Source: Rhizobiales bacterium PAR1 (GTDB lineage: Bacteria > Pseudomonadota > Alphaproteobacteria > Rhizobiales > Beijerinckiaceae). From it: DNA of 64,000 nt. The translations under genes and the position numbers were made by a program. The stretch covers positions 62,001-126,000 of the forward strand of contig NKIW01000001.1 of NCBI GenBank assembly GCA_002256205.1, written 5' to 3'. This document shows positions 31,122 to 48,321 of the stretch, piece after piece; the stretch's first letter is position 1; the number at the start of each line of letters is the position of its first letter. Under the pieces are notes generated by a model. That model made no database searches and had not been told where the DNA came from. It saw nothing but the letters and a program-made list of their open reading frames with translations.

Positions 31122-32372
31122 ATGAAATTCTCCCTTCTCAACCTCATCCGTGAGGGCCTATCCGGCAATATGGGCTGGCCGCGCCAATGGCGGACGCCAG
31201 AACCCAAAGCGGCCTACGATGTCATCATCGTCGGAGCGGGCGGACACGGCCTCGCCACGGCCTATTACCTCGCCAAGGAGCACGGCATCCGCAACATCGC
31301 GGTGCTCGAGAAGGGCTGGCTCGGCGGTGGCAACACCGGGCGCAATACCACGATCATCCGCTCCAATTACCTCTGGGAAGAGAGCGAAGCGCTCTACGAA
31401 CACGCGGTCAAGCTTTGGGAAACGCTCTCGGACGAGCTGAACTACAACGTCATGTATTCCCCGCGCGGCGTGATGATGCTCGCGCACACGATTCACGATG
31501 TGCAGGTGACGAAGCGGCATATCCACGCCAATCGCCTCGCGGGCATCGACAACGAATGGCTCTCCCCGGAGGAGGCAAAAGCCTTCTGCCCAATCCTCAA
31601 CATTTCCAGAGACATCCGCTACCCGATCCTTGGTGCGGCGCTGCAACGCCGTGGCGGCACGGCGCGACACGATGCTGTCGCCTGGGGGTATGCGCGCGGC
31701 GCGGATCGCCTCGGCGTCGACATCATCCAGAATTGCGAGGTCAAGGGCATTAACCGCGACGCGACCGGCAAGGTCACAGGTGTCGAGACCACGCGCGGTT
31801 TCATCGGCGCGGGCAAGATCGGGGTAGTCGCCGCAGGGCATACCTCGGTGCTGATGGGCATGGCCGATATCCGTATGCCGCTTGAGAGCTATCCGCTGCA
31901 AGCCCTTGTTTCTGAACCTGTAAAGCCATTGATGCCTTGCGTGGTAATGAGCAACACCATCCACGCCTACATGTCGCAGTCGGACAAGGGCGAGCTGGTG
32001 ATCGGCGCAGGGACAGATCAATACATCTCCTATTCGCAGACCGGCGGGCTGCACATTACCCAGCATACGCTCGATGCGATCTGCGAGCTTTTTCCGATGA
32101 CGCGACGCCTTCGCATGCTGCGCAACTGGGGTGGCATTGTTGATGTCACGCCGGACCGATCACCGATCATCGGCAAGACGCCGGTGGAAGGGCTGTTCGT
32201 CAATTGTGGCTGGGGCACCGGCGGCTTCAAGGCAACGCCCGGCTCGGGTCATGTCTTTGCGGCTACGATCGCCAAGGGCGAGCCGCATCCGATCGCGGCG
32301 CCGTTCACGCTGGAGCGTTTCACAACAGGCCGGTTGATTGATGAAGCCGCAGCGGCTGCTGTAGCACATTAA
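31122..32372 (+). CDS. soxB: Sarcosine oxidase beta subunit
   Basis: A flavoprotein subunit of about 416 residues of heterotetrameric sarcosine oxidase, which oxidises sarcosine to glycine with transfer of the methyl group to THF. The FAD-binding motif [20 protein letters not shown] follows an N-terminal [17 protein letters not shown] segment, and the C-terminal substrate-domain motif [16 protein letters not shown] is typical of SoxB. ATG at 31122 is chosen; a GTG four codons upstream is possible. First gene of the sox operon, which is interrupted by an AT-rich gene. Confidence 0.95.
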
Positions 32373-32390
32373 GGACGCGAGGATTAAAAC

Positions 32391-32885
32391 ATGAAAAAAC
32401 CCGATGATTGTTATTTTTTTGATGAAAAAACAGATCCATCTCATGAACGAGATGGACGCACCAAAGGAAATAATGAATATCAAAAAGTAATAAATAACAT
32501 TATGATATATTCTGTAGCAACAATTGCGCTTCCTATTATTTTCTTTAAAGATATTTTTCAAGAAAAAATTGATTCTGGAAAAAATATTGCGTTTTTTATA
32601 ATTCAACAAAGTTATTTAGCAATTCTCCCATTAACAGGTTATATTTGCCTATTTTTTTGTATGTATTGTTGCATTCAATATATAAATTATTCTGGATTTT
32701 ATTTAAGACAACTAGCAAGAATAATCAATTGTGACGAATGGTTACAAACAAGAGAATCAATAAAGCTTCAAAGCGATATGCAATTTTTCTACAATGGCGC
32801 GTGGATTGGATGGAGCATGGGAACGATCTCAATCCTCACTTTCCTTATCTTCTACCGGAAATTTTCTTCTGATGCGCTGATGTAG
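32391..32885 (+). CDS. AT-rich hypothetical membrane protein inside sox operon
   Basis: A 164-residue protein with about three predicted transmembrane helices (IMIYSVATIALPIIFF, QSYLAILPLTGYICLFFCMYC, IGWSMGTISILTFLIFY) and a charged N-terminal tail. I do not recognise a family. The gene is strikingly AT-rich compared with its neighbours (a 60-base sample at 32461 has about 13 G or C), although the last ~90 bases are closer to the host. It begins 18 bases after soxB and ends 11 bases before soxD, with its own GAGG site, so it fits the operon without disrupting it. Recent horizontal insertion is inferred. Confidence 0.75.
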   Translation: MKKPDDCYFFDEKTDPSHERDGRTKGNNEYQKVINNIMIYSVATIALPIIFFKDIFQEKIDSGKNIAFFIIQQSYLAILPLTGYICLFFCMYCCIQYINYSGFYLRQLARIINCDEWLQTRESIKLQSDMQFFYNGAWIGWSMGTISILTFLIFYRKFSSDALM

Positions 32886-32896
32886 GGAAATTCTGT

Positions 32897-33181
32897 ATGC
32901 TCCTGATCCATTGTCCTTATTGCGATTCAAACCGTCCCGAAACCGAGTTCCGGAATGCGGGCGCTGCGCATATCCTGCGGCCCTCTGACCCGGCGACGAC
33001 GAGCGACGCCGAATGGGCGGAATTCCTCTACCTGCGCGAAAATCCGAAAGGCACCATCGCCGAACGCTGGCGGCATGTGCACGGCTGCGGGCGCTTCTTT
33101 AACGCGATCCGCGACACGGTGAGTGATGACTTCGCAGTAACCTACAGGGCGGGCGAACCGCGTCCGGGGACAACGCCATGA
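32897..33181 (+). CDS. soxD: Sarcosine oxidase delta subunit
   Basis: A 94-residue zinc-binding subunit of heterotetrameric sarcosine oxidase. It begins MLLIHCPYCDSNRPETEF with the CPYC ligand pair and has WRHVHGCGRFFNAIRDTV with further His/Cys ligands, the standard SoxD layout. Its stop overlaps the soxA start (ATGA), indicating translational coupling. It follows the inserted AT-rich gene by 11 bases, whose 3' end now overlaps its ribosome-binding region. Confidence 0.95.
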   Translation: MLLIHCPYCDSNRPETEFRNAGAAHILRPSDPATTSDAEWAEFLYLRENPKGTIAERWRHVHGCGRFFNAIRDTVSDDFAVTYRAGEPRPGTTP

Positions 33182-36072
33182 GCATGCTTCGTACGCCGTC
33201 CGGCGGCCGGATCGACCGCACCCGCGCATTGCGCTTCACTTTCGATGGCCGGCTGATGCAGGGCCATCAGGGCGACACACTGGCCTCCGCCTTGATCGCC
33301 AATGGCGTTCATCTGATGGGGCGCTCGTTCAAGTATCACCGCCCGCGCGGACCGATCTCCGCCGGTGCGGAAGAGCCCAACGCGCTGGTGACGGTTACCC
33401 GTTCCGGGCGCTCGACACCCAATCTGCGTGCAACCCAGATCGAGCTTTATGAAGGCCTCGCCGCATTGAGCCAGAACCGTTGGCCCGCGCTCGATTTCGA
33501 TATCGGTGCGATCAACGGGCTCATCTCGCCGTTCCTCGGTGCGGGCTTCTACTACAAGACCTTCATGGGGCCGAAGGCTCTCGGTTCGAACTGGGCCTGG
33601 ACGAAGATTTACGAGCCGGTGATCCGCGCCGCGGCCGGTCTTGGCCGCGCGCCAGAAGGGCCGGACCTCGACCGTTATGCCAACCGTTTCGCCCATTGCG
33701 ATGTGCTGGTGATTGGCGGCGGCGACGCGGGGCTGACCGCCGCGCTGGAAGCCTCGGCTGATGGCAAGGCAAGTGTCATCCTCTGCGACGAGCAAGCCGA
33801 ATTCGGTGGCTGGTTGCTCAACAGTGATGGCGCATGGCTCGGTGAGACGCTGGCAACGCTCGCCAGCCGCCCCAATGTTCGGATGCTCCGGCGCACGCAG
33901 GCTTTCGGCTATTTCGCGCAGAATTTCGTCGCGCTTCAGGAGCGCCTGACGGATCATCTCGCCGACCTACCGGAAGGCACGCCACGCGAACGTCTCTGGC
34001 AGGTCAGGGCAGGCGAGGTGATCCTCGCGACCGGTGCCATCGAGCGCCCGCTGGCCTTCCCGGATAACGATCGTCCCGGCATCATGCTCGCAGGCGCTGC
34101 GGAAACCTATGCCACGCGTTACGGCGTCCGGCCCGGCACACGCGCGGCGATCTTCACCGCCTGCGACAGCGCCTATGGTGCCGCACTGGCACTGAAGGCG
34201 GCGGGTGTGGAGATCGCGGCGATTGTTGATATTCGCCTCAAGCCAGATCCTGCTTTGGCAGCTCAGGCGCTTGAAGCAGGTATTGCAGTCCATAGCGGTA
34301 CCGTGATCACCGGCACGACCGGGGGAAAACGTGTCTCCCATATCACCATCGGCAAGCTTCAGCCGGATGCCAGCGTGCGCGGCGCGGACCAGCTCGCGTG
34401 TGATTTTGTCGCGATGTCTGGCGGCTGGGTGCCTTCGGTGCATCTGTTCTCGCAATCGCGCGGCAAACTGCGCTGGGACGAAACGCTGAATGCCTATGTG
34501 CCGAACATCACAGCGCCGGGGCAGAAGCAACGCTCGGTCGGCGCCTGCGCCGGCGCCTTTTCCGCCGAGATGCGCGGCGCCTTCAATGGCGCGACGCCGG
34601 TGCCGGGTGATCCGGCCAAGGTGAAGGCCTTTGTCGATTTCCAGAACGACGTCACCGCGCGCGATATCCGCCTTGCGACGCGCGAGGGGATGCACTCGGT
34701 CGAGCACGTGAAGCGCTTTACCACAACCGGCATGGCGACCGATCAGGGCAAAACCTCAAACATGAATGCGCTCGGCATCGTCTCCGAGGCGCTGGGCAAA
34801 AGCCTTCCCGAGGTTGGTCTCACGACCTTCCGGCAGCCCTATACGCCGGTGACCTTCGGGCTTTTCGCCGGGCAAGCACGTGGTGACCTCTTCGATCCCG
34901 TCCGTAAGACGCCGATCCATAATTGGGCGGTGGCGCAAGGCGCAGCCTTCGAGGATGTCGGCCAGTGGAAGCGCGCGCATTATTTCCCGCAAAAGGGCGA
35001 GGACATCCACGCCGCCACGAACCGCGAATGCCGCCTCGTGCGCGGAACTGTCGGCATTTTCGATGCCTCGACGCTCGGCAAGATCGAGCTTGTCGGACCG
35101 GATGCGGCGGAATTTCTCGAACGCGTCTACGTCAACAACTGGAAGAACCTCGGGGTGGGCCGCTGCCGCTACGGCATCCTGCTCAACGAGGCCGGCTTCG
35201 TGATCGATGACGGCGTGATCGCGCGCCTCGCGCCGGATCGCTTCCACATCACCACGACGACCGGCGGCGCGGCGCGCGTCTTCGCGATGTTCGAGGATTA
35301 CTTGCAAACCGAATGGCCGGACCTCAAGGTCTGGCAGACCTCGATCACCGAGCAATACGCCGTGATCGCCGTGCAAGGCCCGAAGGCGCGCGCGGTGCTC
35401 GCACCGCTCGTCGAGGGCATCAATCTTGCGTCGGAGGCTTTCCCGCATATGGCGATCCGCGAGGGGCGCATCTGCGGGGTGGAGACGCGGCTCTTCCGCG
35501 TCAGTTTCTCGGGTGAACTTGGCTTTGAGGTCAATGTACCGGCCTCGCAAGGGCGTGCGGTCTGGGAGGCGATCCACGCCGAGGCCATCAAGCAGGGCGG
35601 TGGTGCCTATGGCACCGAGGCGATGCACGTCCTGCGCGCCGAGAAGGGCTTCATCATCGTCGGGCAGGAAACCGACGGCACCATGACGCCGGATGATGTC
35701 GGTCTTGGCTGGGCCATCGGCAAAGCCAAGACCGACTTTATTGGCAAGCGCGGGTTGATGCGGCCCGATCTCATGGCGGCAGGGCGCAAACAACTCGTCG
35801 GCCTTCAGACCCTCGACCCCAAGGTCGTGCCGGAAGAGGGCGCCCAGATCACGGCAGAGGCGAACCCCGCGCCCGGTACAGCCGCGCTCGGCCACGTCAC
35901 CTCGTCTTACTGGAGCGAGACCTGCGGCCGCTCGATCGCGCTAGCCGTGATCGCCAATGGGCGCGCGCGGGTCGGCGAGGTGCTGCATATCCCGATGCCC
36001 GGCGGTGCCATTGCGGTCACCGTTGTCGCCCCCGTGTTCTACGATCCCAAGGGAGAACGGCTCAATGGCTAA
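33178..36072 (+). CDS. soxA: Sarcosine oxidase alpha subunit
   Basis: A 964-residue multidomain subunit. In order: a 2Fe-2S ferredoxin-like N-terminal fold without the cluster cysteines (ALRFTFDGRLMQGHQGDTLA), an NAD/FAD-binding Rossmann domain (VLVIGGGDAGLTAALEA, about residue 180), and a C-terminal THF-binding aminomethyltransferase (GcvT-like) domain (KIELVGPDAAEFLERVYVNN onward, from about residue 630). It carries the folate-binding half of the enzyme. It overlaps soxG by 8 bases. Confidence 0.96.
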   Translation: MSMLRTPSGGRIDRTRALRFTFDGRLMQGHQGDTLASALIANGVHLMGRSFKYHRPRGPISAGAEEPNALVTVTRSGRSTPNLRATQIELYEGLAALSQNRWPALDFDIGAINGLISPFLGAGFYYKTFMGPKALGSNWAWTKIYEPVIRAAAGLGRAPEGPDLDRYANRFAHCDVLVIGGGDAGLTAALEASADGKASVILCDEQAEFGGWLLNSDGAWLGETLATLASRPNVRMLRRTQAFGYFAQNFVALQERLTDHLADLPEGTPRERLWQVRAGEVILATGAIERPLAFPDNDRPGIMLAGAAETYATRYGVRPGTRAAIFTACDSAYGAALALKAAGVEIAAIVDIRLKPDPALAAQALEAGIAVHSGTVITGTTGGKRVSHITIGKLQPDASVRGADQLACDFVAMSGGWVPSVHLFSQSRGKLRWDETLNAYVPNITAPGQKQRSVGACAGAFSAEMRGAFNGATPVPGDPAKVKAFVDFQNDVTARDIRLATREGMHSVEHVKRFTTTGMATDQGKTSNMNALGIVSEALGKSLPEVGLTTFRQPYTPVTFGLFAGQARGDLFDPVRKTPIHNWAVAQGAAFEDVGQWKRAHYFPQKGEDIHAATNRECRLVRGTVGIFDASTLGKIELVGPDAAEFLERVYVNNWKNLGVGRCRYGILLNEAGFVIDDGVIARLAPDRFHITTTTGGAARVFAMFEDYLQTEWPDLKVWQTSITEQYAVIAVQGPKARAVLAPLVEGINLASEAFPHMAIREGRICGVETRLFRVSFSGELGFEVNVPASQGRAVWEAIHAEAIKQGGGAYGTEAMHVLRAEKGFIIVGQETDGTMTPDDVGLGWAIGKAKTDFIGKRGLMRPDLMAAGRKQLVGLQTLDPKVVPEEGAQITAEANPAPGTAALGHVTSSYWSETCGRSIALAVIANGRARVGEVLHIPMPGGAIAVTVVAPVFYDPKGERLNG

Positions 36073-36643
36073 AACCTTGATGGCGGAACCTCCAAAATCC
36101 AAACCCCGGCTGCCGAACGACGCCATCGCGTGGATCACCGCCGCGCCGCCGCTGGCGCGCTTCATTTTCCGGGGATCGCCGGAGGCGGAAGCTGCGGCAG
36201 GCTCAGCCTATGGCCTCGCATTCCCGAAAGCCCTCAACCGTGCCGCCAGCATCGGCGAGCGTGGCAAGCCCGGTGCGCGCGTTGCCCTGCGGATCGGGCC
36301 GGATGAGCTTCTGCTGATCGTCCCCATCGCGGAAGGAAAAGCAGTCCAGACCGCACTCGAGACCGCAACAGCCGCGCATCCACATAGCCTTGTCGATATC
36401 TCGGATCGCCACACTGGCTTCGCGCTCGAAGGCCCGCACGCCGCCGACCTGATCAACGCCGGCTGCCCGCTCGATCTCGATGAACGCGCCTTTCCCGTTG
36501 GCATGGTCACGCGGACGCTGCTCCACAAGGCGGAAATCGTGCTCTGGCGCATGGGTCCGACGCTGTTTCGCGTCGAGGTCTGGCGCTCCTTCGCGCCATA
36601 CGTGGAAGCGCTTCTGGAGGAAGCCGCACACGATTTCCTTTAG
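36065..36643 (+). CDS. soxG: Sarcosine oxidase gamma subunit
   Basis: A protein of about 192 residues with a GcvT-like fold, the fourth subunit of heterotetrameric sarcosine oxidase. Family features are GPDELLLIVP, SLVDISDRHTGFALEGPHAADLI and RTLLHKAEIVLWRMGPTLFRVEVWRSF. It overlaps the soxA stop, so synthesis is coupled. The ORF-track start 36 codons upstream lies inside soxA and is not used. folD follows after 93 bases. Confidence 0.93.
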   Translation: MAKTLMAEPPKSKPRLPNDAIAWITAAPPLARFIFRGSPEAEAAAGSAYGLAFPKALNRAASIGERGKPGARVALRIGPDELLLIVPIAEGKAVQTALETATAAHPHSLVDISDRHTGFALEGPHAADLINAGCPLDLDERAFPVGMVTRTLLHKAEIVLWRMGPTLFRVEVWRSFAPYVEALLEEAAHDFL

Positions 36644-36736: not shown

Positions 36737-37666
36737 GTGACTGCCAAGCTGATTGACGGAAAAGCCATCGCAGCCAGCCTGCGTGCCGAACTCGCCGCAC
36801 GCATTGCCAAGCTGACGGAGGCCGGCGCGCGCAAGCCCGGCCTTGCCGTGGTGCTGGTGGGGGAAGATCCGGCAAGTCAGGTCTACGTCGGCTCCAAGGT
36901 CAAGCAGACCACTGAGATCGGGATGCTCTCGATAGAGCACCGTTTGCCAGCCGAAACCACCGAAGCCACGCTGCTGGCGCTGGTCGCCAAACTCAACGCC
37001 GACCCCACGATCGACGGCATTCTCGTACAATTGCCGCTGCCGGCCCACATCGACGCCGACAAGGTGATCGAGGCGATCACGCCGGGCAAGGATGTCGATG
37101 GCTTCCACCCGGTCAATGTCGGTCGCCTTTCAACCGGCGGGCGCGCCTTTGTACCCTGCACACCGCGCGGCTCGATGAAGCTGATCAAATCCGTCCGCGA
37201 GAACCTCTCCGGTCTGCACGCCGTCGTGGTTGGGCGCTCGAACATCGTCGGCAAGCCGATGCTGCAACTGCTGCTGGCCGAGAATTGCACGGTCACGGTC
37301 GCGCATTCGCGCACGAAGGATCTGGCGGAGACCTGCCGTCAGGCGGATATTCTCGTCGCGGCAGTCGGACGTCCGAGGCTTCTGAACGAAACCCATGTGA
37401 AGCCCGGCGCAATTGTCATCGATGTCGGCATCAACCGCATCGCGGATCCCGCGACCGGCAAGAACAAACTCGTCGGCGATGTTGATTTCGACCGTGTCGC
37501 CCCTGTCGCGGGTGCGATCACCCCGGTTCCGGGCGGCGTCGGCCCGATGACCATCGCATGCCTGCTCGAAAACACGCTCGAGTCCTACGAAGCGCAGACG
37601 AAAAAGTCCGGGCGATTTGACGCCGTCACGGAATGGATCTGCGCCTCGGGCAATATCCAGCCCTAA
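36737..37666 (+). CDS. folD: Bifunctional methylenetetrahydrofolate dehydrogenase/cyclohydrolase
   Basis: A 309-residue enzyme that oxidises 5,10-methylene-THF and opens methenyl-THF to formyl-THF. Signatures are [17 protein letters not shown] (catalytic lysine region), [11 protein letters not shown], the NADP-binding [13 protein letters not shown] and [18 protein letters not shown]. It starts with GTG after GAGGAG. Location directly after the sox operon makes metabolic sense, because sarcosine oxidase loads one-carbon units on THF; co-transcription is likely. Confidence 0.97.
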
Positions 37667-37964: not shown

Positions 37965-38010
37965 TGGTGAGCTCGATGGGATTCGAACCCATGACCCCAT
38001 GATTAAAAGT
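37965..38010 (-). pseudogene. 3' half of tRNA-Lys(UUU), left att site of the island
   Basis: These 46 bases are identical to the 3' part of the complete tRNA-Lys at 48246-48291: CCA end, acceptor 3' strand, T arm, variable loop and anticodon stem, ending exactly in the anticodon loop at GATTAAAAGT. Beyond it the sequence (GCGGGTCCTG) is unrelated to tRNA. It marks the left junction of the integrated element. Confidence 0.93.
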
Positions 38011-38147
38011 GCGGGTCCTGCTTAAAGCCCTGAGCACTCTCTGACAACCCCTTGCACGAAATCGCTTGCCTTTTCAAGACCATGCAACCAAGAGTTGCTT
38101 TTGGTTTTCAAGGGCTGCATCCGAGCGGAAGACGCCTCCTGAGGACC

Positions 38148-38172
38148 TTGCCGGCTTTTTTACCGGCTTTTT
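38148..38172 (-). repeat. Tandem candidate integrase arm-type sites, left end
   Basis: The minus strand reads AAAAAAGCCGGT then AAAAAAGCCGGCA, two direct repeats. Related AAAA(A)GACGGCA motifs occur at 46388 and 48174 and AAAAGCCGGCA at 48345, all near the opposite end. Their placement beside int and near both junctions suggests integrase arm binding. Confidence 0.5.
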
Positions 38173-38196
38173 TCTGGGCCTCAAGGAGAACAAACC

Positions 38197-39528
38197 ATGC
38201 ACAAACCCGCCCGTGGTCCCCGCACCGAGCGGCTGACCGACAACACCGTGGCACGCATCCCCCTCGCGCTCAATGGCCAGCACGTCATCCGTGACGCGCT
38301 CTGCCCTGGGCTTTTCGTCGTCGTCGGCAAGCGGGCCAAGACATGGACCGTGCAAGGCGACCTCCGGCGAGGGAGTGAGCGCCAGACGATCAAGATGGCC
38401 CTTGGCCGGACGGACGAGATTGACGTCGCGGAGGCGCGGCGGCTCGCGGCGGACGTGCTGGACCGCATTCGTCGGGGCGAAGACCCTCGCGGCGGCGCGG
38501 CAACCGGGGCGCTCACCCTGCGCGCGGCGATGGAGGCCTATTGCAAGACCATGATGCGCCGGGGGCGCTGCGACCGGAGCATCGACGGTGTGCGCGACGG
38601 CGTGGAGCGCGTGCTGAAGGCGTGGGTTGACGAGCCCTTGGTGAACCTCGGCAAGGACCGTCGCCGCGTGGTCGAGCGGCACGACGAGCTGACCGAGCGC
38701 CACGGCCCCTATGCCGCCAACGGCGCGATGCGGACCCTAAGGGCGATCTACAACCACGCGATGAAGCTCGACCCCGACCTTCCGCCGAACCCCGTCCGCG
38801 CCGTCACCTTCAACGCCGAGACGCGGCGCGACACCGGCATGGGCGCGGCGGACTTGCCCGCATGGGAGGCCCAGAGGGTGGCGCTGAGCAACCCTATCCG
38901 GCGCGAGTTTCACCTCATCACCCTGCTGACGGGCAGCCGCCCCGAGGCGCTGCGGCTCGCTCGCTGGGAGCACATCGACGTTGCCCGCCGCGTTCTGCGC
39001 ATCCCGTCGCCCAAGGGCGGGGCGAAGCGCGCCTTCGACATTCCGCTCTCGCGCCCGCTGATCCGCGCACTCATTCGCGTTCGACGCGTCGGGCTCGTGC
39101 TGTATCCCCGGCAGTCGGTCGAATGGATTTTCCCCGCCGCTTCCGCCTCTGGGCACATTGCCGAGCACAAGGAGCACCGAGAAGACCTGAGCAAGTGGGG
39201 CAACGACTTGCGGCAGACCTTCCGCAACATGTGCGCGCTGGCGGGCATCGACCCGCTTTCGAGCCGCCTGCTGATGAACCATCAGGTTAGCCGCGACGTC
39301 CATGACGGCTACCTGACCAAGAGCGCGCTGATGGACAGCCTGCGGGCCGCGCAGGAGCGCGTTTCCACGGCGATCATGGCGGGCCTCGCAGCCCCGGTTC
39401 CGAAGCGCCGGGAGACAGAGAGCAAGATGGCTGATCCGGCTCCCGCCCGCGCTGCGCGGACAGAACGCAAGCCTTCCCCACGGGACGGACGCATTAAGTC
39501 TCAGCACATTTCCAACGCAACCCTTTGA
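38197..39528 (+). CDS. Tyrosine-type site-specific integrase
   Basis: A 443-residue recombinase. The N-terminal part (residues 1-95) resembles the DUF4102-type arm-binding domain of island integrases (GLFVVVGKRAKTWTV, then LGRTDEIDVAEARRLA); a SAM-like core-binding domain follows, and the catalytic domain shows the first Arg (LLTGSRPEALRLARW), the C-terminal box DLRQTFRNMCALAGI, MNHQVSRDVHDGYLTK with His and the nucleophilic Tyr. The usual HxLR is NDLR. AGGAG precedes the ATG. It probably integrated the element at the anticodon loop of tRNA-Lys. Confidence 0.93.
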   Translation: MHKPARGPRTERLTDNTVARIPLALNGQHVIRDALCPGLFVVVGKRAKTWTVQGDLRRGSERQTIKMALGRTDEIDVAEARRLAADVLDRIRRGEDPRGGAATGALTLRAAMEAYCKTMMRRGRCDRSIDGVRDGVERVLKAWVDEPLVNLGKDRRRVVERHDELTERHGPYAANGAMRTLRAIYNHAMKLDPDLPPNPVRAVTFNAETRRDTGMGAADLPAWEAQRVALSNPIRREFHLITLLTGSRPEALRLARWEHIDVARRVLRIPSPKGGAKRAFDIPLSRPLIRALIRVRRVGLVLYPRQSVEWIFPAASASGHIAEHKEHREDLSKWGNDLRQTFRNMCALAGIDPLSSRLLMNHQVSRDVHDGYLTKSALMDSLRAAQERVSTAIMAGLAAPVPKRRETESKMADPAPARAARTERKPSPRDGRIKSQHISNATL

Positions 39529-39556
39529 TGTTGCGTTGGAAACTAAACGTCAAAGC

Positions 39557-39961
39557 TCACTTGTTGTAAGTGATTACATCAAAGAAAACCGATCCATCAG
39601 GATTTTTCCCGACGGTTTGTACCGTCAGAGAATTTCCAGACGTATCTAGTTTCCTAGCGTAAGGGCCACCGTAAACACCAGCCTTCTTGAAAAAGCCGAT
39701 AGTAACATGATCGTTCACTTTGTACGGCTCGATTGCATCAACGTCCTCGCGGCCATAAACGGGATGGTCCTTGCCATCGTAATACGCTGTATAGCCCCAC
39801 TCATAGGACTTTCCTGCTTTTGATCCTTTGACTGTCAATTTGTAGCCGTTTTCGAGCTGTTCATAAAACCGCGTCTCGAAATTAGGGCTAAAATTGCTAC
39901 TGAAAATCGACTTTCCATTGTCAATTTTCCATTCAACTCCAAAAAGTGCGGTGTCGGCCAT
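39557..39961 (-). CDS. Hypothetical protein, island cargo
   Basis: A protein of about 134 residues beginning MADTALFGVEWKIDNGK. It is rich in aromatic and beta-forming residues (YGREDVDAIEPYKVNDHVTI, FFDVITYNK), so a small all-beta protein is likely; there is no signal peptide or membrane helix. I do not recognise a family. GGGAGG lies six bases before the ATG, supporting the start over the longer ORF-track version. Base composition is lower in GC than the integrase. It converges with int, 28 bases away. Confidence 0.6.
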   Translation of the reverse strand: MADTALFGVEWKIDNGKSIFSSNFSPNFETRFYEQLENGYKLTVKGSKAGKSYEWGYTAYYDGKDHPVYGREDVDAIEPYKVNDHVTIGFFKKAGVYGGPYARKLDTSGNSLTVQTVGKNPDGSVFFDVITYNK

Positions 39962-40119
39962 AATTAACCTCCCATCTGTGCTGGCGTACCAGCGACATGT
40001 ATTGTGGAGAAATAACAATACAAATCAATGTCAGTTTCAAAGACACCAAGCGCCATTCGTGAGATTGGCATTTGGAATGCTGGTTTTCCAAGAATGCCGC
40101 ATTTGCCGCCCTCATGCCC

Positions 40120-40143
40120 GCACGCGTGCGAGCGCGATCGCGC
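40120..40143. other. Pair of adjacent perfect palindromes
   Basis: GCACGCGTGC (40120-40129) and GCGCGATCGCGC (40132-40143) stand side by side in the roughly 300-base gene-free gap 39962-40269. They could be protein-binding sites or part of an origin; nothing else in the gap was recognised apart from one copy of the CTTGGGC motif at 40220. Confidence 0.4.
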
Positions 40144-40269
40144 GAACCGAATGACTAATGATCGACGTGGAACGGGCTGCCCAAGGCAGCGGAAGTGCTG
40201 CCTGCGCTGTGGCTTGCGCCGCTTGGGCAGCTTGGCGGGCGACAAAAGGACGTGGGCTAGGACGGCGGG

Positions 40270-40935
40270 CTACTTATCCTGTGCCTTCTCTCGCCAGCGC
40301 CGGTCTTGTTCGGCGGTCATCCGCTCGTATTCCTCCCGCTGGAAGCGGCGCTCCTCGTCCCGCGTCTTGAAGCGGGGATCATCTGGGCCGGTTTCGCGTG
40401 CTCTTGTCGCCATGTAGCGCTCGTAGATTGCCGCACGCGCCTTGGAAAGATTGGGATTTTCCGTCGCGCCATTGTGCCAAGCGACGTCGCCGCGCAGCAT
40501 GTCCCAGTGCTGGCGGCACTGTTCGGCAGTTGCCAGCCGAAGCCATGCGCGGTCGCCTTGCCGTACCTCGCCATTCTCGATGTAACGGGGGCGATACCGA
40601 ATGCGCTTCGGCAATTCACCCCCGATCTTGGGCAGGACGAGGCGCAAGAACGCTTCCAGCGAATTTGCAGTTGCGCCGCCATCTAATCGGCGAAATGCTT
40701 CCATCAGCTCGCTTTCGGGAACCTCCACTTCCCATGCCAAGCCGCCCACTAAGCTCCTGTTCCAAAGGCAGCCGAGCCACCATGCCTCGGTCTTGGATTT
40801 GCAGTCGTAGAGGTAGCCGGGCGGAAGGGGGCGCTTGGGCTTGCGTGCCATCGGCGCGCGCTTGGGTGGTTGGTCGCGCCATCGGGCCAGCCGGTCTTCG
40901 GTCGCCACCAGTTCCGCGCCTCGGGCTTTGAACAA
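40270..40935 (-). CDS. Hypothetical protein, possible downstream half of a broken gene
   Basis: Up to 221 residues from a TTG start; the alternative ATG at 40851 gives 193 residues beginning MARKPKRPLPPGYLYDCKSK. A Trp-rich segment (KTEAWWLGCLWNRSL) and a very charged helical C-terminus (RDEERRFQREEYERMTAEQD) are visible. I do not recognise a family. The frame continues upstream through one TGA (40951-40953) into the 43-codon HTH-like ORF, so the two may be parts of one interrupted gene. Confidence 0.5.
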   Translation of the reverse strand: MFKARGAELVATEDRLARWRDQPPKRAPMARKPKRPLPPGYLYDCKSKTEAWWLGCLWNRSLVGGLAWEVEVPESELMEAFRRLDGGATANSLEAFLRLVLPKIGGELPKRIRYRPRYIENGEVRQGDRAWLRLATAEQCRQHWDMLRGDVAWHNGATENPNLSKARAAIYERYMATRARETGPDDPRFKTRDEERRFQREEYERMTAEQDRRWREKAQDK

Positions 40936-40950
40936 GCCGCCGAGCTCGCC

Positions 40951-41082
40951 TCACTCGTGCAGCGCGCGCAAGACCGCCTGCGACGTCTTGAGCTTCCGCG
41001 CCACTTGGGCAATGTCCAATTCGCCAAGAGCGAGCATGTCCTGGCGAAATCTCTGCTTGCGGGTGCCTGCTGACTGGGCCAT
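40951..41082 (-). CDS. Short HTH-like ORF, in frame with 40270..40935
   Basis: A 43-residue peptide starting MAQSAGTRKQRFRQDMLALG; its second half (LDIAQVARKLKTSQAVLRAL) looks like a helix-turn-helix. GGGAGAG precedes the ATG. It ends at TGA and the same frame then stays open for another 227 codons, so it is either an independent small regulator or the N-terminus of a gene with a premature stop. Family not recognised. Confidence 0.45.
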   Translation of the reverse strand: MAQSAGTRKQRFRQDMLALGELDIAQVARKLKTSQAVLRALHE

Positions 41083-41564
41083 ATTCTGTTCTCTCCCGGT
41101 GTTGCTCGTTCTGGGTCTATGCTTGGCAAATACTGCACAGTTCGGCAATCGTGATCGTGAGCTTCGCCGGGTTGCTTGAGAAAATGGCGGTTCGCTTGAT
41201 TGCCTGCCCCGGACCCAAGGGGTCCTAACCAACTCTCTCTAAACAATAAACTTGAGAAACTCCGCTTTGGGGTCCCGACGACGTGTGCCTTTGGCCCAGG
41301 GGGACGGGGACGCAAAAAGCTCCGTTCTCTTTCTCTCTTATATTCTCTCTATAGAAATATAGAGAGAGATAAGAAAATAGAGTGTTCGCTGTTTTTGTAA
41401 TGGGTTAGCCGGACTTAGGTGCGGGGTGAACAAACGGCAAGACCCGAGCGATCCGCCCACCCTCTCCTTGGGCATGTCCCCAAATACTGGCCCCGTTGCC
41501 TTCTGGATTGCCCACGTTGCGTGCTCTGGGCATCACAGTGCCAGAAACCATAGGGAGCTTGCCC
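41083..41564. other. Intergenic region of the island
   Basis: About 480 bases between divergent genes. It holds an AT-rich inverted repeat (41337-41373), one CTTGGGC copy (41467) and the promoters of both flanking genes. The AT-rich block 41320-41400 contrasts with the GC-rich genes around it, which is typical of an origin or regulatory region, but iterons were not seen. Confidence 0.4.
41337..41373. repeat. AT-rich inverted repeat
   Basis: CTTAT-ATT-CTCTCTATA-GAAA-TATAGAGAG-AG-ATAAG forms a long imperfect stem. It has no clear T-tract after it on either strand. It may be an operator or an element of a replication or recombination site. Confidence 0.5.
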
Positions 41565-42050
41565 ATGCCGAAGAACCTCACCAGCCGCCATAGCCCCGCG
41601 CCGCTCGCCGGGGGCGTTGTTTGTCTCTCGACCGGAGATCGCGTCTATTGCCGTGCTTGGCACGCATGGTGGCTTGCCAAGCTCTGGCATGGCGAGGTTC
41701 TGCCCGGTCAGGGCTGGCCGCTGGCCGTGAGCCGTGCAGAGTTGGAACGCGACTATCTCGCTTGGGCGCGAGAGCATAGCGAACTCGCCCTCTACACGGT
41801 GCCGGTAGAACAGGCGCTCTACTGGCCGACCCGCATGTCGTTGGAAGACTGGTCGTGCCCCGAGCTTGTGCTCGACCCGCTTCCCGCGATGCGCGCCCGC
41901 TGGAATGAGGCGCTGTTCCCTGTTCACTGGCCGGAACCCGAGCCCACCCGGCGCGCTGCCCGTTCCCCGTCGCGCCCGTCAGACCTTTCTCGCCTGTTCG
42001 CCGCCCATGTTGGCGCGCTCGTTCCACAAGGTGAATTTATCGCCGCGTAA
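41565..42050 (+). CDS. Hypothetical protein, island
   Basis: A protein of about 161 residues starting MPKNLTSRHSPAPLAGGVVC, with AGGGAG eight bases before the ATG. It contains many tryptophans in its first half (CRAWHAWWLAKLWHGEVLPG) and a proline-rich C-terminal part. No signal peptide, membrane helix or family is recognised. It is the first gene of the plus-strand, very GC-rich block of the element. Confidence 0.55.
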   Translation: MPKNLTSRHSPAPLAGGVVCLSTGDRVYCRAWHAWWLAKLWHGEVLPGQGWPLAVSRAELERDYLAWAREHSELALYTVPVEQALYWPTRMSLEDWSCPELVLDPLPAMRARWNEALFPVHWPEPEPTRRAARSPSRPSDLSRLFAAHVGALVPQGEFIAA

Positions 42051-42132
42051 GCGAGCCACCCAGACACTTCATCTCCGGGGCGGGGCGCGCAAGCGTCCCG
42101 CCGCGCATCATTTCCCGCCGTGCCACGTCGGG

Positions 42133-42152
42133 AAGGACGGCGGCGCGGACGG
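42133..42152 (+). repeat. Island 20-mer repeat, copy 1
   Basis: AAGGACGGCGGCGCGGACGG. Matches copies at 43648 and 45367 in 17 or more of 20 positions; each copy lies between genes and can pair with an upstream CCGCC-type arm to form a hairpin. Confidence 0.55.
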
Positions 42153-42334
42153 TTACTGACAGCGCAGCCCGCCTGCCTTGGGCATGGTTCACGGCGTCGG
42201 GGTGTTTTCACTCCTTGTCCGCCCCGGCACTTCATGGTCCGACTTGGCCACTCGCTTGCGTCGCGGGTGGCCTTTTTCTTCCCGGCCCATTGTTCCTGAT
42301 TTCGTGCGGTTGCACCGGGAGGCAGAACGTTGCC

Positions 42335-42538
42335 ATGAGCAACGAGCCCGCCACCCCCGCCGCCTACATGACCGTCCGAGAGGCCGCAGCCTTCGTGCGT
42401 GTTCACCCCGAACACCTCAAGCGGCTATGCCGACAAGGGCGGGGCCCGCGCGTGATCCGCCTCGGTCGCGCCTTGCGCTATGCCCGCGCCGACCTCGACG
42501 CATGGATGGCGCAGCACGCACAGGGAGCCGTCGCTTGA
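42335..42538 (+). CDS. AlpA/excisionase-like helix-turn-helix protein
   Basis: A protein of about 67 residues. After a short N-terminus it reads MTVREAAAFVRVHPEHLKRL, a MerR/excisionase-type helix-turn-helix (HTH_17), followed by the wing GRALRYARADLDAWM. Proteins like this act as excisionases or as regulators of integrase genes in islands and satellites. Its stop overlaps the start of the next gene (TTGA), so it heads a coupled gene run. Confidence 0.8.
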   Translation: MSNEPATPAAYMTVREAAAFVRVHPEHLKRLCRQGRGPRVIRLGRALRYARADLDAWMAQHAQGAVA

Positions 42539-43071
42539 CCGACGCGCACGCCTTGGGCGTTCCCGCCGATGAGGACAAGCAGGCCATTCTTCGGGAGCTT
42601 CGGGCCAACGGTGCCATGCTGCGCTCCATCCGCAAGCAGAAAGGCGCGCGGGACGCGCTCAACTATCGGGGCGTGATGGCCGGGCAACCCGACGCCCGCG
42701 ACAATATCCCCGAAGCCGCGCGGGCGGTTGCCGAGTTGCGCCATTCCACTCTGCACCCCATCGACTGGGCTGCCATCTGCCTCGCCGCCATCGCATCCCC
42801 GAAGCTCGACCGCTTCGCGCTCGAACGGATCGCCCTGCACTTGGGTGCGGACGCGGCGGTGCTACAGGCCGCGTTCGGCTGGCTGCCCGCTACCCGCCCG
42901 GCCGGCACGGTTGCCGCCAACCCGTTCTATCAGAACCTCGTCAGGAGCAAGCCCGGCTACCGATTGGCTCGGCCTGAGGCACCGGACCAGCGCGCGGCCC
43001 TTGGGCTCTTCCTCGCGGGGCGTGACCCGGCGCTTTCCGAGCGCATCATCGACGCGAGGCCCGCCGCATGA
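42535..43071 (+). CDS. Hypothetical protein, island operon
   Basis: A protein of about 178 residues with a TTG start that overlaps the AlpA-like stop and has GGGAG upstream. It is mostly helical, with KQAILRELRANGAMLRSIRK near the N-terminus and DWAAICLAAIASPKLDRFAL in the middle. I do not recognise a family. The ORF-track start at 42178 lies in another gene's frame and is rejected. Its stop overlaps the next start (ATGA). Confidence 0.6.
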   Translation: MTDAHALGVPADEDKQAILRELRANGAMLRSIRKQKGARDALNYRGVMAGQPDARDNIPEAARAVAELRHSTLHPIDWAAICLAAIASPKLDRFALERIALHLGADAAVLQAAFGWLPATRPAGTVAANPFYQNLVRSKPGYRLARPEAPDQRAALGLFLAGRDPALSERIIDARPAA

Positions 43072-43556
43072 CTTCAACCGCTCGCCCAGACGAGGCAATT
43101 GACTTCCTCCGAGCCCGCGACCTGCCCGTGTGGCACGTGCGCTGCCCAAATGGGGTCGCCAAGGCACTGCATCCCGACCGGCATAGCCAGATCATCCTTC
43201 GGGCGATGCTGACCGAGACGCCCGAGGCGTATCGCGCGCTGCTTCACTGGCTGCCCGCTCGACACTACGGCCACGACTGGCCTGCGAGCACGCCCGCCTG
43301 TGCCTTCCCTTGGGCCATTGTCCGCTCGCCGCTTGAAGCCGATGCGCGCGGCCCGCTGCCCGACTTCGGCATTCGCCTTGGCGAGCACGTCTGGCGCTTC
43401 CACCCTGTCCGCCACGCCTCGCACGCCGAGGCGATGGAGCGGGCGCACGTCATCGCCGCGACCATCCCCCTCGCCACGGCATGGGACCCTCTCGCCGGGG
43501 TGCCTCTGCCGGGAACGGGCGGCGCGGCGGTTGTTGGGCGGGAGGGTGCAGGATGA
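43068..43556 (+). CDS. Hypothetical protein, island operon
   Basis: A 162-residue protein starting MTSTARPDEAIDFLRARDLP. It is rich in histidine and tryptophan (VWHVRCPNGVAKALHPDRHS, HWLPARHYGHDW), so metal binding or an enzyme role is possible, but no family is recognised. It overlaps the previous gene by four bases. A gap of 118 bases containing a 20-mer repeat separates it from the next gene. Confidence 0.6.
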   Translation: MTSTARPDEAIDFLRARDLPVWHVRCPNGVAKALHPDRHSQIILRAMLTETPEAYRALLHWLPARHYGHDWPASTPACAFPWAIVRSPLEADARGPLPDFGIRLGEHVWRFHPVRHASHAEAMERAHVIAATIPLATAWDPLAGVPLPGTGGAAVVGREGAG

Positions 43557-43647
43557 GGCCGGTCGTCCGCCCCCATGATGCCCAGTCGGAGTGGCCGCGC
43601 CTCCAAACCTCCGCCAGCGCACGGGGTCTCTCCGTTCTCCACCGCGC

Positions 43648-43667
43648 AAGGACGGTGGCGAGGACGG
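43648..43667 (+). repeat. Island 20-mer repeat, copy 2
   Basis: AAGGACGGTGGCGAGGACGG, just upstream of the next gene's start. The preceding CCGTTCTCCACCG pairs with CGGTGGCGAGGACGG to make a stem-loop. Confidence 0.55.
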
Positions 43668-43674
43668 CGCGGCC

Positions 43675-43929
43675 ATGACGAAACCGCACATCCGAGCCCT
43701 GCCGGGCCAGAGCCGCCTGAACGGCGGCGCGCGCCGGGTGGACCCGGCCAAGCTCGCAAAGGCGGAGGTGCGTGCCGCCCTCAAGGCCGTTCAAGTCGCC
43801 CGAAGGGACCACGGAACCCGGCTGACCCGCGCCGCCGAGGGACACGCGACAGACATCATGGCGACCCGCCGCGTCGTGCGCGAGGCGGAGCGCCGATACC
43901 GAGACCTGACAGGAGAGGACTGCCCATGA
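43675..43929 (+). CDS. Small basic hypothetical protein, island operon
   Basis: A protein of about 84 residues, strongly basic and helical (KLAKAEVRAALKAVQVARRD, then RRVVREAERRYRDL). It could bind nucleic acid, but no family is recognised. Start at ATG 43675 follows the second 20-mer repeat. Its stop overlaps the next start (ATGA), so the products are probably made together. Confidence 0.55.
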   Translation: MTKPHIRALPGQSRLNGGARRVDPAKLAKAEVRAALKAVQVARRDHGTRLTRAAEGHATDIMATRRVVREAERRYRDLTGEDCP

Positions 43930-44672
43930 CCACGCCCATCGACACCAGCGTTCCGCTGGACCTGCACCCGGAAGCCCTCGCGCCGCTGGCCGGAACTTTC
44001 GCCCCCGACGACATGCCGGGCAAGATGGGCCTTGCCCTTGGGCAGGCCGCGCTTGCCGAGATGCACGACAGCTACCGCAAGATCGCCACCGCCGCGTCCG
44101 CCATTCAGGAGAGCGAGCACCGCGTCGTCTCGACGCCTGCTGGGCTCCGCGTTGGGCGCGCTGACCTTGGGCCGCTGGTGGATGCCGCCAAGGCTGCTTT
44201 CGACCGCACGGCGCGCGCTGTCGATACTCGGTTGAAGTCGCTTGCCGAGGAACAGGCGGGGCTCGCCAAGCGCATGGAGAGCGTGCTGACCGAGCCGTCG
44301 CGCAGCGCCGTCGGCATCGCGCAAGCGAGCGAGGTGCGGACCTATCTCCGCTCGCTGGAGCCGGGCAAGGCGATGACGGTCGCGCTCGACTCCATGCGCG
44401 CGGGCGACCGCGTGACCGCCGCCGCCGTGCTCACCGCGCCGCCCTACCTCTCCGGGCTCGATGCCGAGAAGCATGGCGAGCTCCGCAAGCTCGCCGCCGC
44501 GACGCTGGAACCCCGGCTCAATGCCGCCATCGACGGGTTGGAACGCATCACGGACCACGTGCGCCGGGCCTCACAGTCCTATGTCGCGCTCTACGCCAAG
44601 GTGACGCGAGCCGCCAATGCCGGGCCGGGCGCGCGGGCTCAGGCCGCGTTGAAGGAGCTTCACAGTGTCTGA
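43926..44672 (+). CDS. Hypothetical helical protein, island operon
   Basis: A protein of about 248 residues starting MTTPIDTSVPLDLHPEALAP. It is predominantly alpha-helical and alanine-rich, with possible coiled coil around FDRTARAVDTRLKSLAEEQA. No membrane segment and no recognised family; length and composition would suit a scaffold or structural protein of a phage-like particle, which is speculative. It overlaps both neighbours (ATGA upstream, 8 bases downstream). Confidence 0.6.
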   Translation: MTTPIDTSVPLDLHPEALAPLAGTFAPDDMPGKMGLALGQAALAEMHDSYRKIATAASAIQESEHRVVSTPAGLRVGRADLGPLVDAAKAAFDRTARAVDTRLKSLAEEQAGLAKRMESVLTEPSRSAVGIAQASEVRTYLRSLEPGKAMTVALDSMRAGDRVTAAAVLTAPPYLSGLDAEKHGELRKLAAATLEPRLNAAIDGLERITDHVRRASQSYVALYAKVTRAANAGPGARAQAALKELHSV

Positions 44673-44865
44673 CGAGCCAATGGTTGAGACCCTGCGGCGC
44701 TATTGCCGCGACCGGGACCGTGACGTGTTGCGGCTTGAGGGAGAGGTTGCGGATTTGCGCAGGGAACTCGACGCCGCACGCACCGCCCCCTCTGGGCAGG
44801 TCGCACCTGAGCCCGAGCCCGCCGATACGATCCTTCACCGAATGCTTGAGGAGCATAGCCCATGA
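44665..44865 (+). CDS. Small coiled-coil hypothetical protein, island operon
   Basis: A 66-residue protein with a GTG start inside the end of the previous gene. The middle part (RDVLRLEGEVADLRRELDAA) is a clear heptad-repeat coiled coil and the rest is Pro/Glu-rich. Family unknown. Its stop overlaps the start of the next gene (ATGA). Confidence 0.55.
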   Translation: MSDEPMVETLRRYCRDRDRDVLRLEGEVADLRRELDAARTAPSGQVAPEPEPADTILHRMLEEHSP

Positions 44866-45290
44866 CACGCAGCATCAAGCCGACGTCCCGCCGCTTCGAG
44901 CGGCAGATGGTCCGCACCGTCACGCAGGGGCGGCAGTTCGGGGACGGACGCCGCTCGCCCCGCGTGGTGCAGGCCGGCACGACCAGCGCCGCGCCACTCA
45001 CCTTGGGCGCTACGCAGACGCAGCACGACATCACGACCGACGGCACGGGCATCGCCCGCGCGGTGCAGGTCGGCACGGCAGGGCAGTTCGCGGGCCAGCG
45101 CAAGCTGGTCCGGCTCGTCACGCGTACGGGCGCGAGCGACACGTTCACGCTCGACGCCGCAAGCCTGCTCAAGCCCTCCGGTGCGCCGGTCACGTCGCTG
45201 ACGTTCAACGCGGCGGGGCAGTCTGCCCTGCTGGAATGGAACGGGCGGCGCTGGGTGGTTCTGGACACCATCGGCGCGGCGCTGGTCTGA
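44862..45290 (+). CDS. Phage-type beta-structured protein, island operon
   Basis: A 142-residue protein with a basic N-terminus and a repetitive Thr/Gly-rich beta region: ATQTQHDITTDGTGIARAVQ, then TFTLDAASLL and LLEWNGRRWVVLDTIGAALV. The ending, with a hydrophobic strand, Asn-Gly-Arg and a Trp strand, resembles C-terminal domains often seen in phage virion decoration or tail proteins. This is pattern similarity by eye, not a family match. Last gene of the overlapped run. Confidence 0.55.
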   Translation: MTRSIKPTSRRFERQMVRTVTQGRQFGDGRRSPRVVQAGTTSAAPLTLGATQTQHDITTDGTGIARAVQVGTAGQFAGQRKLVRLVTRTGASDTFTLDAASLLKPSGAPVTSLTFNAAGQSALLEWNGRRWVVLDTIGAALV

Positions 45291-45366
45291 CCTTCTGATC
45301 GTCTGTCGTTGAGGCGGGCGGGATTTCTCCCGCCGCGCCGGAGGTTTGCCCGCCGCCCTTGGGCAA

Positions 45367-45386
45367 AAGGACGGCGGGGAGGACGG
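45367..45386 (+). repeat. Island 20-mer repeat, copy 3
   Basis: AAGGACGGCGGGGAGGACGG, between two convergent genes and directly after a CTTGGGC copy. The upstream CCGCCGCCC arm can pair with it, so here it may also serve as a terminator stem. Confidence 0.55.
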
Positions 45387-45794
45387 CTAGACGCCTGCCG
45401 TGTCCCAGAAGTCGGGCTCGGAGACACGCCTTGCCGACTTGCGCTTCTTCGCACGGGCCTCGTTCCAAGCCATCTCGGTCAGCAAGCGCCGCGCCTCGCA
45501 CATGGCCTCGCGGTGGTGAGGAAGGGCCGCCGTCTCCCGGGTTCGCCACTTCTCGCCGTCGGCAAGCCGCTCCTCCAAGTCGGCATGCACCATCGCTTCG
45601 GTGCAATCCCACCAAGGCTCGCCGCGTGCCAAGCTCTCGCCATTCAGCACGTTGCGAGCATCTTGAATAATGTCGAGGTGTCCGATGCAGTAGTCTGGCC
45701 CATCGAAAAACATGTTCTCCGAGCGGAAGATCAGGCGTGCGACCTTGGAGTTGCGCTTGCTGTAGATGCCGAAGCATTCGTCATCGTCGCTCAT
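45387..45794 (-). CDS. Hypothetical protein, second gene of an overlapping pair
   Basis: A 135-residue acidic-to-basic protein starting MSDDDECFGIYSKRNSKVAR and ending with a Lys/Arg-rich helix (EARAKKRKSARRVSEPDFWD). The middle part is rich in Trp, His and acidic residues. No family is recognised. It starts inside the end of the upstream gene (ATGA overlap), so the two form a coupled pair, a layout common to toxin-antitoxin or defence pairs but not proof of one. Confidence 0.55.
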   Translation of the reverse strand: MSDDDECFGIYSKRNSKVARLIFRSENMFFDGPDYCIGHLDIIQDARNVLNGESLARGEPWWDCTEAMVHADLEERLADGEKWRTRETAALPHHREAMCEARRLLTEMAWNEARAKKRKSARRVSEPDFWDTAGV

Positions 45795-46060
45795 GCCGAA
45801 CTTCCAGCGTCAGACGTGAGCGAGCTCGCTGCATCTTCACCCAGCGCATCACAGAAGACGGCAAGGTAGGACTGTACGAACTCGTCAGAGCGCGGGTTGT
45901 CATAGTCGTGCCAGTCCACCGAGAGGCTGAGCTTCCAGGCGCAGCCGCCCATGTCGATTGCGCCGCACTGATCGACCTGCCGCTGCCAGATGGCGAGCAC
46001 TGCCGCCAATTCGGAGCCCTCGCCGCTGCCAAGCACGAATGTCACTGGGTATGTCATCAT
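45791..46060 (-). CDS. Hypothetical protein, first gene of an overlapping pair
   Basis: A protein of about 89 residues starting MMTYPVTFVLGSGEGSELAA. It is acidic with a Trp/Asp-rich middle (CAWKLSLSVDWHDYDNPRSD) and probably a small alpha/beta fold. Family not recognised. The ORF-track version is longer at the N-terminus but lacks a good ribosome-binding site; GGAAA precedes the chosen start. It overlaps the downstream gene by four bases. Confidence 0.55.
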   Translation of the reverse strand: MMTYPVTFVLGSGEGSELAAVLAIWQRQVDQCGAIDMGGCAWKLSLSVDWHDYDNPRSDEFVQSYLAVFCDALGEDAASSLTSDAGSSA

Positions 46061-46413
46061 GGTCTTGTTTCCTTCGTCGTCGAAGGTGCCGACCGTGGAC
46101 TGTCCGAGGTTGTGCGGGCAGCAGACGGCCGACACCGGGTTGGGTATCATTGCCGTCTGTGCAGGCCTGTCACCTGCAAGGGGGAAATCGGCTGAAAGCC
46201 GGGACCACCGTTTTCGTGGACCTCTCAGACGCCCAGAGACAAGCACAACAGCCGGGGGCGTTCACATCACCAACATCAATGCAGGCGCGTGAATCTCGCG
46301 CGCGTCGCGAATTTGCAACACCAAGCGTGATCGTCAGGGTGGAGGACCTGAAATCTGATGCGAGCATTGCAGGTTGTGTGGGGAATAACGGGAAAAAGAC
46401 GGCAAAAAAGCAG
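46061..46413. other. Intergenic region of the island
   Basis: About 350 bases. It contains the promoter side of the minus-strand gene pair, several GC-rich self-complementary patches (GGCTGAAAGCC), and at 46388-46404 the motif ACGGGAAAAAGACGGCA, annotated as a candidate arm-type repeat. ORFs listed on either strand here have no support. Confidence 0.4.
46388..46404 (+). repeat. Candidate integrase arm-type repeat (ACGGGAAAAAGACGGCA)
   Basis: Nearly identical to the copy at 48180-48194 (ACGGGAAAAGACGGCA). The two copies bracket the two-gene operon 46414-48008, so they could also be footprints of that operon's own acquisition. Confidence 0.45.
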
Positions 46414-47022
46414 TCAATGAGGTTTCAGTTCGACGTAATCGCCATAACCTTTACGCTCCAACATTCCGCCAATTGAGGCTTCAGCAGCCCGATGGCGAGC
46501 ATCTTCCCTTGCCTGCGCCTCGCTAATCGCAAGCTCAGCGGATAGGCGCAGCAAGCTTATAATACCATTTCCGACACCGATGGCCCTAAAAACAACAATG
46601 GCAAGAGCCATCACAATAAAGGCGTTGAGGATGCGCATCACCTCAAAGGAAGAGCTCTCCAAACCTGCCCAAGCAAGCGGAATCGGCACCACCAGCGACC
46701 ACTCCACCATCTTCCCGACGATCACCAGCAGGCTCGCCACAAGGGAAACCAGAAACAGCCCGATCCAGACTGCCAATTGCCGCCGCAAAGCGTCTCGATA
46801 ATCAATCAGCTTTTTTACCGACAGGTTTCCCGCGCGCAGGACGCTTGCGGTCAAAACCATCGTGGGCAACACCCCTGCCATCATCAGGCCGAACAGCGCA
46901 ATCAGCTCTTGGGTGACTTCCTTGAAAGCCTTGTTCGGAAGCAGCCAAAACGAAAGGATACCGGCGAGCACTATGGCTCCCAGTGTCCAATGCGATCTCA
47001 GGCTGTTCCAAAAATTCTTCAT
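46414..47022 (-). CDS. Four-helix membrane protein of a two-gene module
   Basis: A 202-residue inner-membrane protein with four predicted transmembrane helices (TLGAIVLAGILSFWLL; ELIALFGLMMAGVLPTMVL; LAVWIGLFLVSLVASLLVIV; ILNAFIVMALAIVVFRAIGV) and a C-terminal helical cytoplasmic tail. No transporter or enzyme family is recognised. Its ATG overlaps the stop of the upstream soluble protein (ATGA). A soluble protein coupled to a small four-helix membrane protein is the layout of abortive-infection systems such as lambda RexAB, so a membrane-effector role is proposed as inference only. Confidence 0.65.
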   Translation of the reverse strand: MKNFWNSLRSHWTLGAIVLAGILSFWLLPNKAFKEVTQELIALFGLMMAGVLPTMVLTASVLRAGNLSVKKLIDYRDALRRQLAVWIGLFLVSLVASLLVIVGKMVEWSLVVPIPLAWAGLESSSFEVMRILNAFIVMALAIVVFRAIGVGNGIISLLRLSAELAISEAQAREDARHRAAEASIGGMLERKGYGDYVELKPH

Positions 47023-48008: not shown

Positions 48009-48173
48009 GGCCAACTCCAAGCTGAATCAATTAAGTCCAATACGCAGCTTGAACCACTTTCGTTGAGCGTGCGAGAGGGCGGAGCCATATCCGCGCATGT
48101 TCTTGTAATGTTCTTGTGCGAATTGTCAACGCCGAGCTTGGCCTGTGGCGTCCGGAGGCAGCAGGCCGTTTTC

Positions 48174-48194
48174 AAAAGACGGGAAAAGACGGCA
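48174..48194 (+). repeat. Tandem candidate integrase arm-type sites, right end
   Basis: AAAAGACGGG followed directly by AAAAGACGGCA, two direct repeats about 55 bases from the tRNA junction. They mirror the tandem sites next to int at 38148. Confidence 0.5.
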
Positions 48195-48245
48195 GGGCGT
48201 CTTGTCGGTTCCCCGGCCTAAATCGTTGATTTTATAGGGAGGAAG

Positions 48246-48321
48246 TGGTGAGCTCGATGGGATTCGAACCCATGACCCCATGATTAAAAGTCACGTGCTC
48301 TACCGACTGAGCTACGAGCTC
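48246..48321 (-). tRNA. tRNA-Lys(UUU), complete
   Basis: On the minus strand it reads GAGCTCG-TA-GCTC-AGTCGGTA-GAGC-A-CGTGA-CTTTTAA-TCATG-GGGTC-ATGGG-TTCGAAT-CCCAT-CGAGCTC-A-CCA. All four stems pair, the anticodon is TTT, and CCA is encoded. Its 3' 46 bases are repeated at the left end of the island and its 5' 40 bases at 48405-48444. It is the only complete tRNA seen in the window. Confidence 0.96.

Follow-up and report, generated by a model that had tools for sequence, protein, structure and literature searches.

An AT-rich membrane-protein gene, almost certainly of horizontal origin, at the soxB–soxD junction of a Rhabdaerophilum sarcosine oxidase operon, and a homologue in the same slot of R. 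calidifontis

The window, a 64,000-nucleotide stretch of DNA from a strain of the genus Rhabdaerophilum, carries a sarcosine oxidase operon on its forward strand. The operon comprises soxB (beta subunit, 31125–32372; Pfam DAO, E = 7e−70; 94% identical to SoxB of the relative G003), soxD (delta subunit, 32897–33181; Pfam SoxD, E = 1.6e−32), soxA (alpha subunit, 33178–36072) and soxG (gamma subunit, 36065–36643), the last two being assigned from their reading frames (964 aa in the case of soxA) and from a gene order which is conserved in relatives. Downstream on the same strand lies folD (36737–37666), a neighbour conserved by synteny, which we used as a marker of operon orthology. The boundary between soxB and soxD is occupied by an additional, intact open reading frame of 164 codons (32391–32885, forward strand). 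An initial annotation had given this gene its own ribosome-binding site and spacers of 18 bases to soxB and 11 bases to soxD, and the coordinates bear this out: the soxB stop codon (32370–32372) is followed after 18 bases by the ATG at 32391, and the stop codon of the inserted gene (32883–32885) is followed after 11 bases by the soxD ATG at 32897. The motif GAGGA (32379–32383) lies 7 bases 5′ of the ATG of the inserted gene, while the ribosome-binding site of soxD, AGGGAA (32884–32889), overlaps the stop codon of the inserted gene. The product (164 aa) has three transmembrane helices predicted from hydropathy (residues about 33–51, 77–95 and 136–154), and homologues support the frame, indicating that it is real. 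The gene is present as a single copy in the host assembly (G000, 4.2 Mb). The same genome contains a second, diverged sarcosine oxidase operon (L032, contig C22), whose SoxB is 83% identical and which lacks the inserted gene.

A tRNA-Lys gene is the site of an integrative element (37965–48291, about 10.2 kb), which starts about 300 bases behind folD. It is bounded by exact 46-base direct repeats (37965–38010 and 48246–48291), contains an integrase-like gene with an Arm-DNA-binding domain (38197–39528) and has an intact tRNA-Lys (48246–48321, reverse strand). Two adjoining genes within it (46414–48020, reverse strand), encoding 202 and 333 aa without a Pfam match, are a possible cargo pair, and the 202-aa product resembles a membrane protein.

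The base composition of the inserted gene differs sharply from that of its neighbours, as had been described. Its GC content is 30.3% (GC3 0.24) versus 61.4% for soxB (GC3 0.75), 62.1% for soxD (0.70) and 64.7% for soxA (0.77), and the 405-base intervals with the lowest GC in the whole 64 kb fall within this stretch. The last ~90 bases had been described as approaching host composition, and we found the best change point at base 32796 (codon-permutation p = 0.0066), with a mean GC3 of about 0.15 before it (first 135 codons) and about 0.63 after it (last 30 codons). The host-like 3′ tail (32796–32882, forward strand) encodes the third predicted helix. The composition of the gene is foreign to both the host and the operon neighbours (neighbour GC3 0.70–0.78).

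Repeat scans of the surroundings found no direct or inverted repeats flanking the gene beyond chance, in agreement with the earlier statement that no insertion-sequence ends or duplications were visible. The best 25-base inverted match scored 21, against a mean of 18.8 and a maximum of 22 for shuffled sequence; an imperfect 25-base inverted repeat formed by the end of soxB and the tail of the inserted gene was rejected as being at chance level. Since the site shows neither repeats exceeding chance nor a reading frame for a recombinase, it carries none of these hallmarks of insertion sequences, transposons or cassettes. Promoter-like matches in the stretch occurred in the number expected by chance. 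Judging by the spacing and the ribosome-binding sites, it is plausible that the gene hitchhikes on the promoter of the sox operon, as was proposed initially, in which case it would be translated from the sox mRNA as an additional cistron.

We read 127 soxB–soxD junctions from the genus and a wider family-level group to compare with the window. The expectation that soxB and soxD are normally uninterrupted held: 105 junctions were ≤ 60 bases long, 20 were 61–292 bases and only 2 exceeded 300 bases, these being the junctions of the window and of the orthologous operon of R. calidifontis. As the slot is filled in just two of the 127 junctions, the gene cannot be counted as an old and general member of the operon. 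Nothing marks it as a sarcosine oxidase subunit, there being no Pfam match above cut-off for the protein and no copy of the gene in the other 125 junctions. A tidy junction of 14 bases, without the insert, is seen in the nearest relative, G003 (soxB 94% identical), and likewise in the orthologous operon of G004, and the junctions of the group G012–G016 are equally compact and empty. No remnant of the gene was found in the junctions of any of these genomes. A folD gene lies downstream of the sox operon in G003, G004, G012 and G014–G016, and in a tree of SoxB and SoxD the window groups with G003 and G004 (support 99/98). Among the relatives sampled, the closest ones thus lack the gene. It should be noted that the junction of another member of the genus, G005 (L014), contains 142 bases which resemble a palindromic repeat element and hold no reading frame of the insert family.

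The second filled slot is found in R. calidifontis strain SYSU G02060 (G001, locus L025), where a homologue of 158 aa occupies the soxB/soxD position of an operon which, since folD lies downstream in both, is orthologous to that of the window. The two insert proteins are 25% identical over 140 residues (E = 1e−10 in the genome search and 2e−14 in a single pairwise comparison) and have in common a near-identical block consisting of IALPI, then I or L, then FFKDIF. The R. calidifontis protein has the same three helices, and its gene is spaced more tightly (11 and 3 bases) and is host-like in composition throughout (GC 63%, GC3 0.87). The two proteins share loop extensions which are lacking in the other three known members of the family, and they group together in the protein tree (98/98), with AU tests rejecting the alternatives (p = 0.004–0.016). 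Both are long branches, so this grouping could be partly an artefact, and if bit scores alone are considered, a homologue from Ferrigenium is just as close to the window protein as that from R. calidifontis.

We also compared the DNA flanking the gene. In 4 of 5 blocks of 249 bases, soxB of the window is closest to that of G003 (82–86% identity); the final block shows a slightly higher identity to G004 than to G003 (86% vs 84%). Identity to R. calidifontis is 76–78% in all blocks, and there is no local rise in soxB or soxD identity to this species over G003 near the insert, which indicates that the flanks were not imported together with the gene from the R. calidifontis lineage. In the alignment, the host-like tail is no more similar to the R. 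calidifontis gene than is the AT-rich part. The initial annotation had called the gene a recent insertion; its foreign composition and its absence from G003 and G004 agree with this, but the event cannot be called unique, as the R. calidifontis slot is also filled. A same-slot homologue of host-like composition, which over a wide range of relatives would speak for an old operon member, was found in this one relative and not widely.

The family to which these proteins belong is very small. Five members are known: those of the window, R. calidifontis, Ferrigenium, a Vibrio plasmid and a phage contig. About 1980 genome searches, in overlapping samples at the levels of genus, family, order, class and phylum, yielded no convincing member beyond the two Rhabdaerophilum proteins; the remaining three came from other collections. 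Two weak candidate relatives, L030 (G871, E = 6e−4) and L031, proved spurious once their frames were read, and in a third, L156 (G941, E = 6e−5), the matching region is interrupted by four stop codons. The Ferrigenium gene (L026, 9980–10384) lies about 70 bases behind ubiE and has a GC content of 48% in surroundings of roughly 60%; ubiE and a likely toxin–antitoxin pair flank it. On plasmid pMBL287 of Vibrio alginolyticus, an IS30 transposase is found close to the family member, and qat defence genes lie about 5 kb away. On this plasmid (L028, 7233–8393), another small membrane-protein gene and then the family member stand upstream of the Qat anti-phage genes. The phage-contig member lies beside a primase gene, on the strand opposite to the replication genes; this viral contig encodes terminase-like and portal-like proteins (read from the sequence), a primase (PHROG match) and a helicase.

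All five proteins (129–164 aa) have three hydrophobic helices at corresponding places by hydropathy. The tail of the window protein supplies the third helix at the family-wide place, with a conserved G and F and with a Y which is present in 4 of the 5 proteins. The window protein gave a poor structure model (pLDDT 62); with an alignment headed by the phage homologue, the phage member modelled well as three helices (pLDDT 83.5, pTM 0.74). We found no meaningful match to the family in Pfam, NCBIfam, PHROGs, PADLOC or the sequences of the PDB; among the PADLOC defence models, the window, R. calidifontis, phage and Vibrio members had no match and the Ferrigenium member had one at chance level only (E = 0.3). 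Fold matches in the PDB were all insignificant, including a similarity to NINJ1 which was unconvincing and which we rejected. The best viral fold match, a weak one, was the uncharacterised phage protein A0A8S5N714 (E = 0.06, probability 1.00, TM 0.63–0.68).

The best-supported part of the interpretation is that the gene in the window was acquired horizontally from an AT-rich source, to which both its composition and its absence from relatives point: drift cannot plausibly bring an intact gene to a GC3 of 0.15 beside neighbours at 0.75. No donor of the AT-rich gene was found in our searches. With a family so rare, it is unlikely that one junction was hit twice without any connection, and the occupancy of the slot in the two species is thus probably not independent. 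We favour, with a probability of roughly 0.6, horizontal acquisition into a soxB/soxD slot that already existed and was re-used, or whose occupant was displaced in place. The order of events and the recombination route that we suggest are as follows. The subfamily would formerly have held the slot within the genus and then been lost from most lineages. After the split from the nearest sampled relative, the AT-rich gene would have arrived horizontally and re-filled the slot, or displaced its occupant in place, in the lineage of the window, settling at the soxB/soxD boundary in such a way that both neighbours kept their own start, stop and ribosome-binding site. Recombination with a resident copy could have left its junction in the host-like 3′ tail; since the tail resembles the R. 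calidifontis gene no more than the rest does, it is weak evidence for such a copy. Prior occupancy would also require several losses, given that G003, G004 and G012–G016 are empty and without a remnant.

A serious rival, if on balance a doubtful one, is that the junction was entered twice independently, long ago in R. calidifontis, where the gene is now host-like, and recently in the strain of the window, where it is still AT-rich, whether through tolerance of the junction to insertion or through a benefit of co-expression with sox. The closest relatives of both species have empty junctions, the two genes have opposite compositions (30% vs 63% GC) and the insert proteins are only 25% identical while SoxB is 83% identical, all as two separate insertions would lead one to expect; the rarity of the family, which makes a chance double hit on this junction unlikely, the sister relationship of the two proteins among the known members and the lack of an insertion footprint argue against them. 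It is unlikely, although it would also account for different species holding alleles from compositionally different donors, that the family re-enters the junction by a scarless targeting route.

Vertical descent of an old operon gene, which would have evolved very fast and become AT-enriched through relaxed selection in the lineage of the window only, agrees with the shared slot, the orthology of the operons (folD synteny) and the sister proteins. This reading is already disfavoured by composition, a GC3 near 0.15 over 135 codons beside neighbours at 0.70–0.78 being far beyond what drift would produce in an intact gene, and the absence of the gene from the closest relatives also counts against it, so that we regard it as quite improbable. 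The sharp composition break at 32796 might alternatively suggest a fusion, in which an inserted AT-rich fragment acquired its last 30 codons, the 3′ end, from the host. We consider this very improbable: the tail carries the third helix where all family members have one, together with conserved residues, and a genus-wide search for a source of the tail matched only the inserted gene itself.

Among known systems, a comparison can be made with small membrane proteins borne by phages, of the superinfection-exclusion or accessory type. The present family resembles them in size (129–164 aa), in its three predicted helices, in having one member beside phage replication genes and in its weak fold similarity to A0A8S5N714, and differs from them in that it matches no sequence family and that the window copy lies in a metabolic operon and not in a prophage. 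With low confidence, the helix topology, the rarity and patchy distribution of the family and its phage and plasmid relatives suggest that the protein is probably an accessory membrane cargo of the phage or plasmid kind and not a subunit of sarcosine oxidase. A role in phage exclusion, an idea which comes from the phage-contig homologue and the helix topology only, may be one possibility among several.

Horizontally acquired or orphan genes are reportedly inserted into existing operons, as Price et al. are said to have described in 'The Life-Cycle of Operons' (PLoS Genet 2006). The gene in the window is similar in being lineage-specific and of unusual composition and in joining a conserved operon, but a rare subfamily in the same junction of a second species is not what random addition would predict. 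Another comparison is with displacement in situ within mosaic operons, a concept of Omelchenko et al. (2003, Genome Biol 4:R55) that is cited in PMC2783167 and PMC10138114. In such cases a gene of foreign composition lies in an otherwise vertically inherited operon whose structure is preserved, as here, and here too a homologue stands at the same place in a relative, R. calidifontis, with the nearest relatives being empty and without a remnant. In the classical cases a pathway gene is replaced by a homologue of the same function, whereas the gene in the window is missing from nearly all relatives and is not a sarcosine oxidase subunit.

The window thus holds a further instance of a known phenomenon, a foreign gene in a mosaic operon, whose unusual feature is the shared slot: a rare, fast-diverging subfamily fills the same junction of two species without an insertion scar, and the base compositions of the two genes are opposite. 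The locus therefore offers a compact case in which to test whether slots of this kind are filled once only or repeatedly, through displacement in place or targeted insertion, and it draws attention to a family of small membrane proteins, with members on phage and plasmid DNA, which is described in none of the libraries searched.
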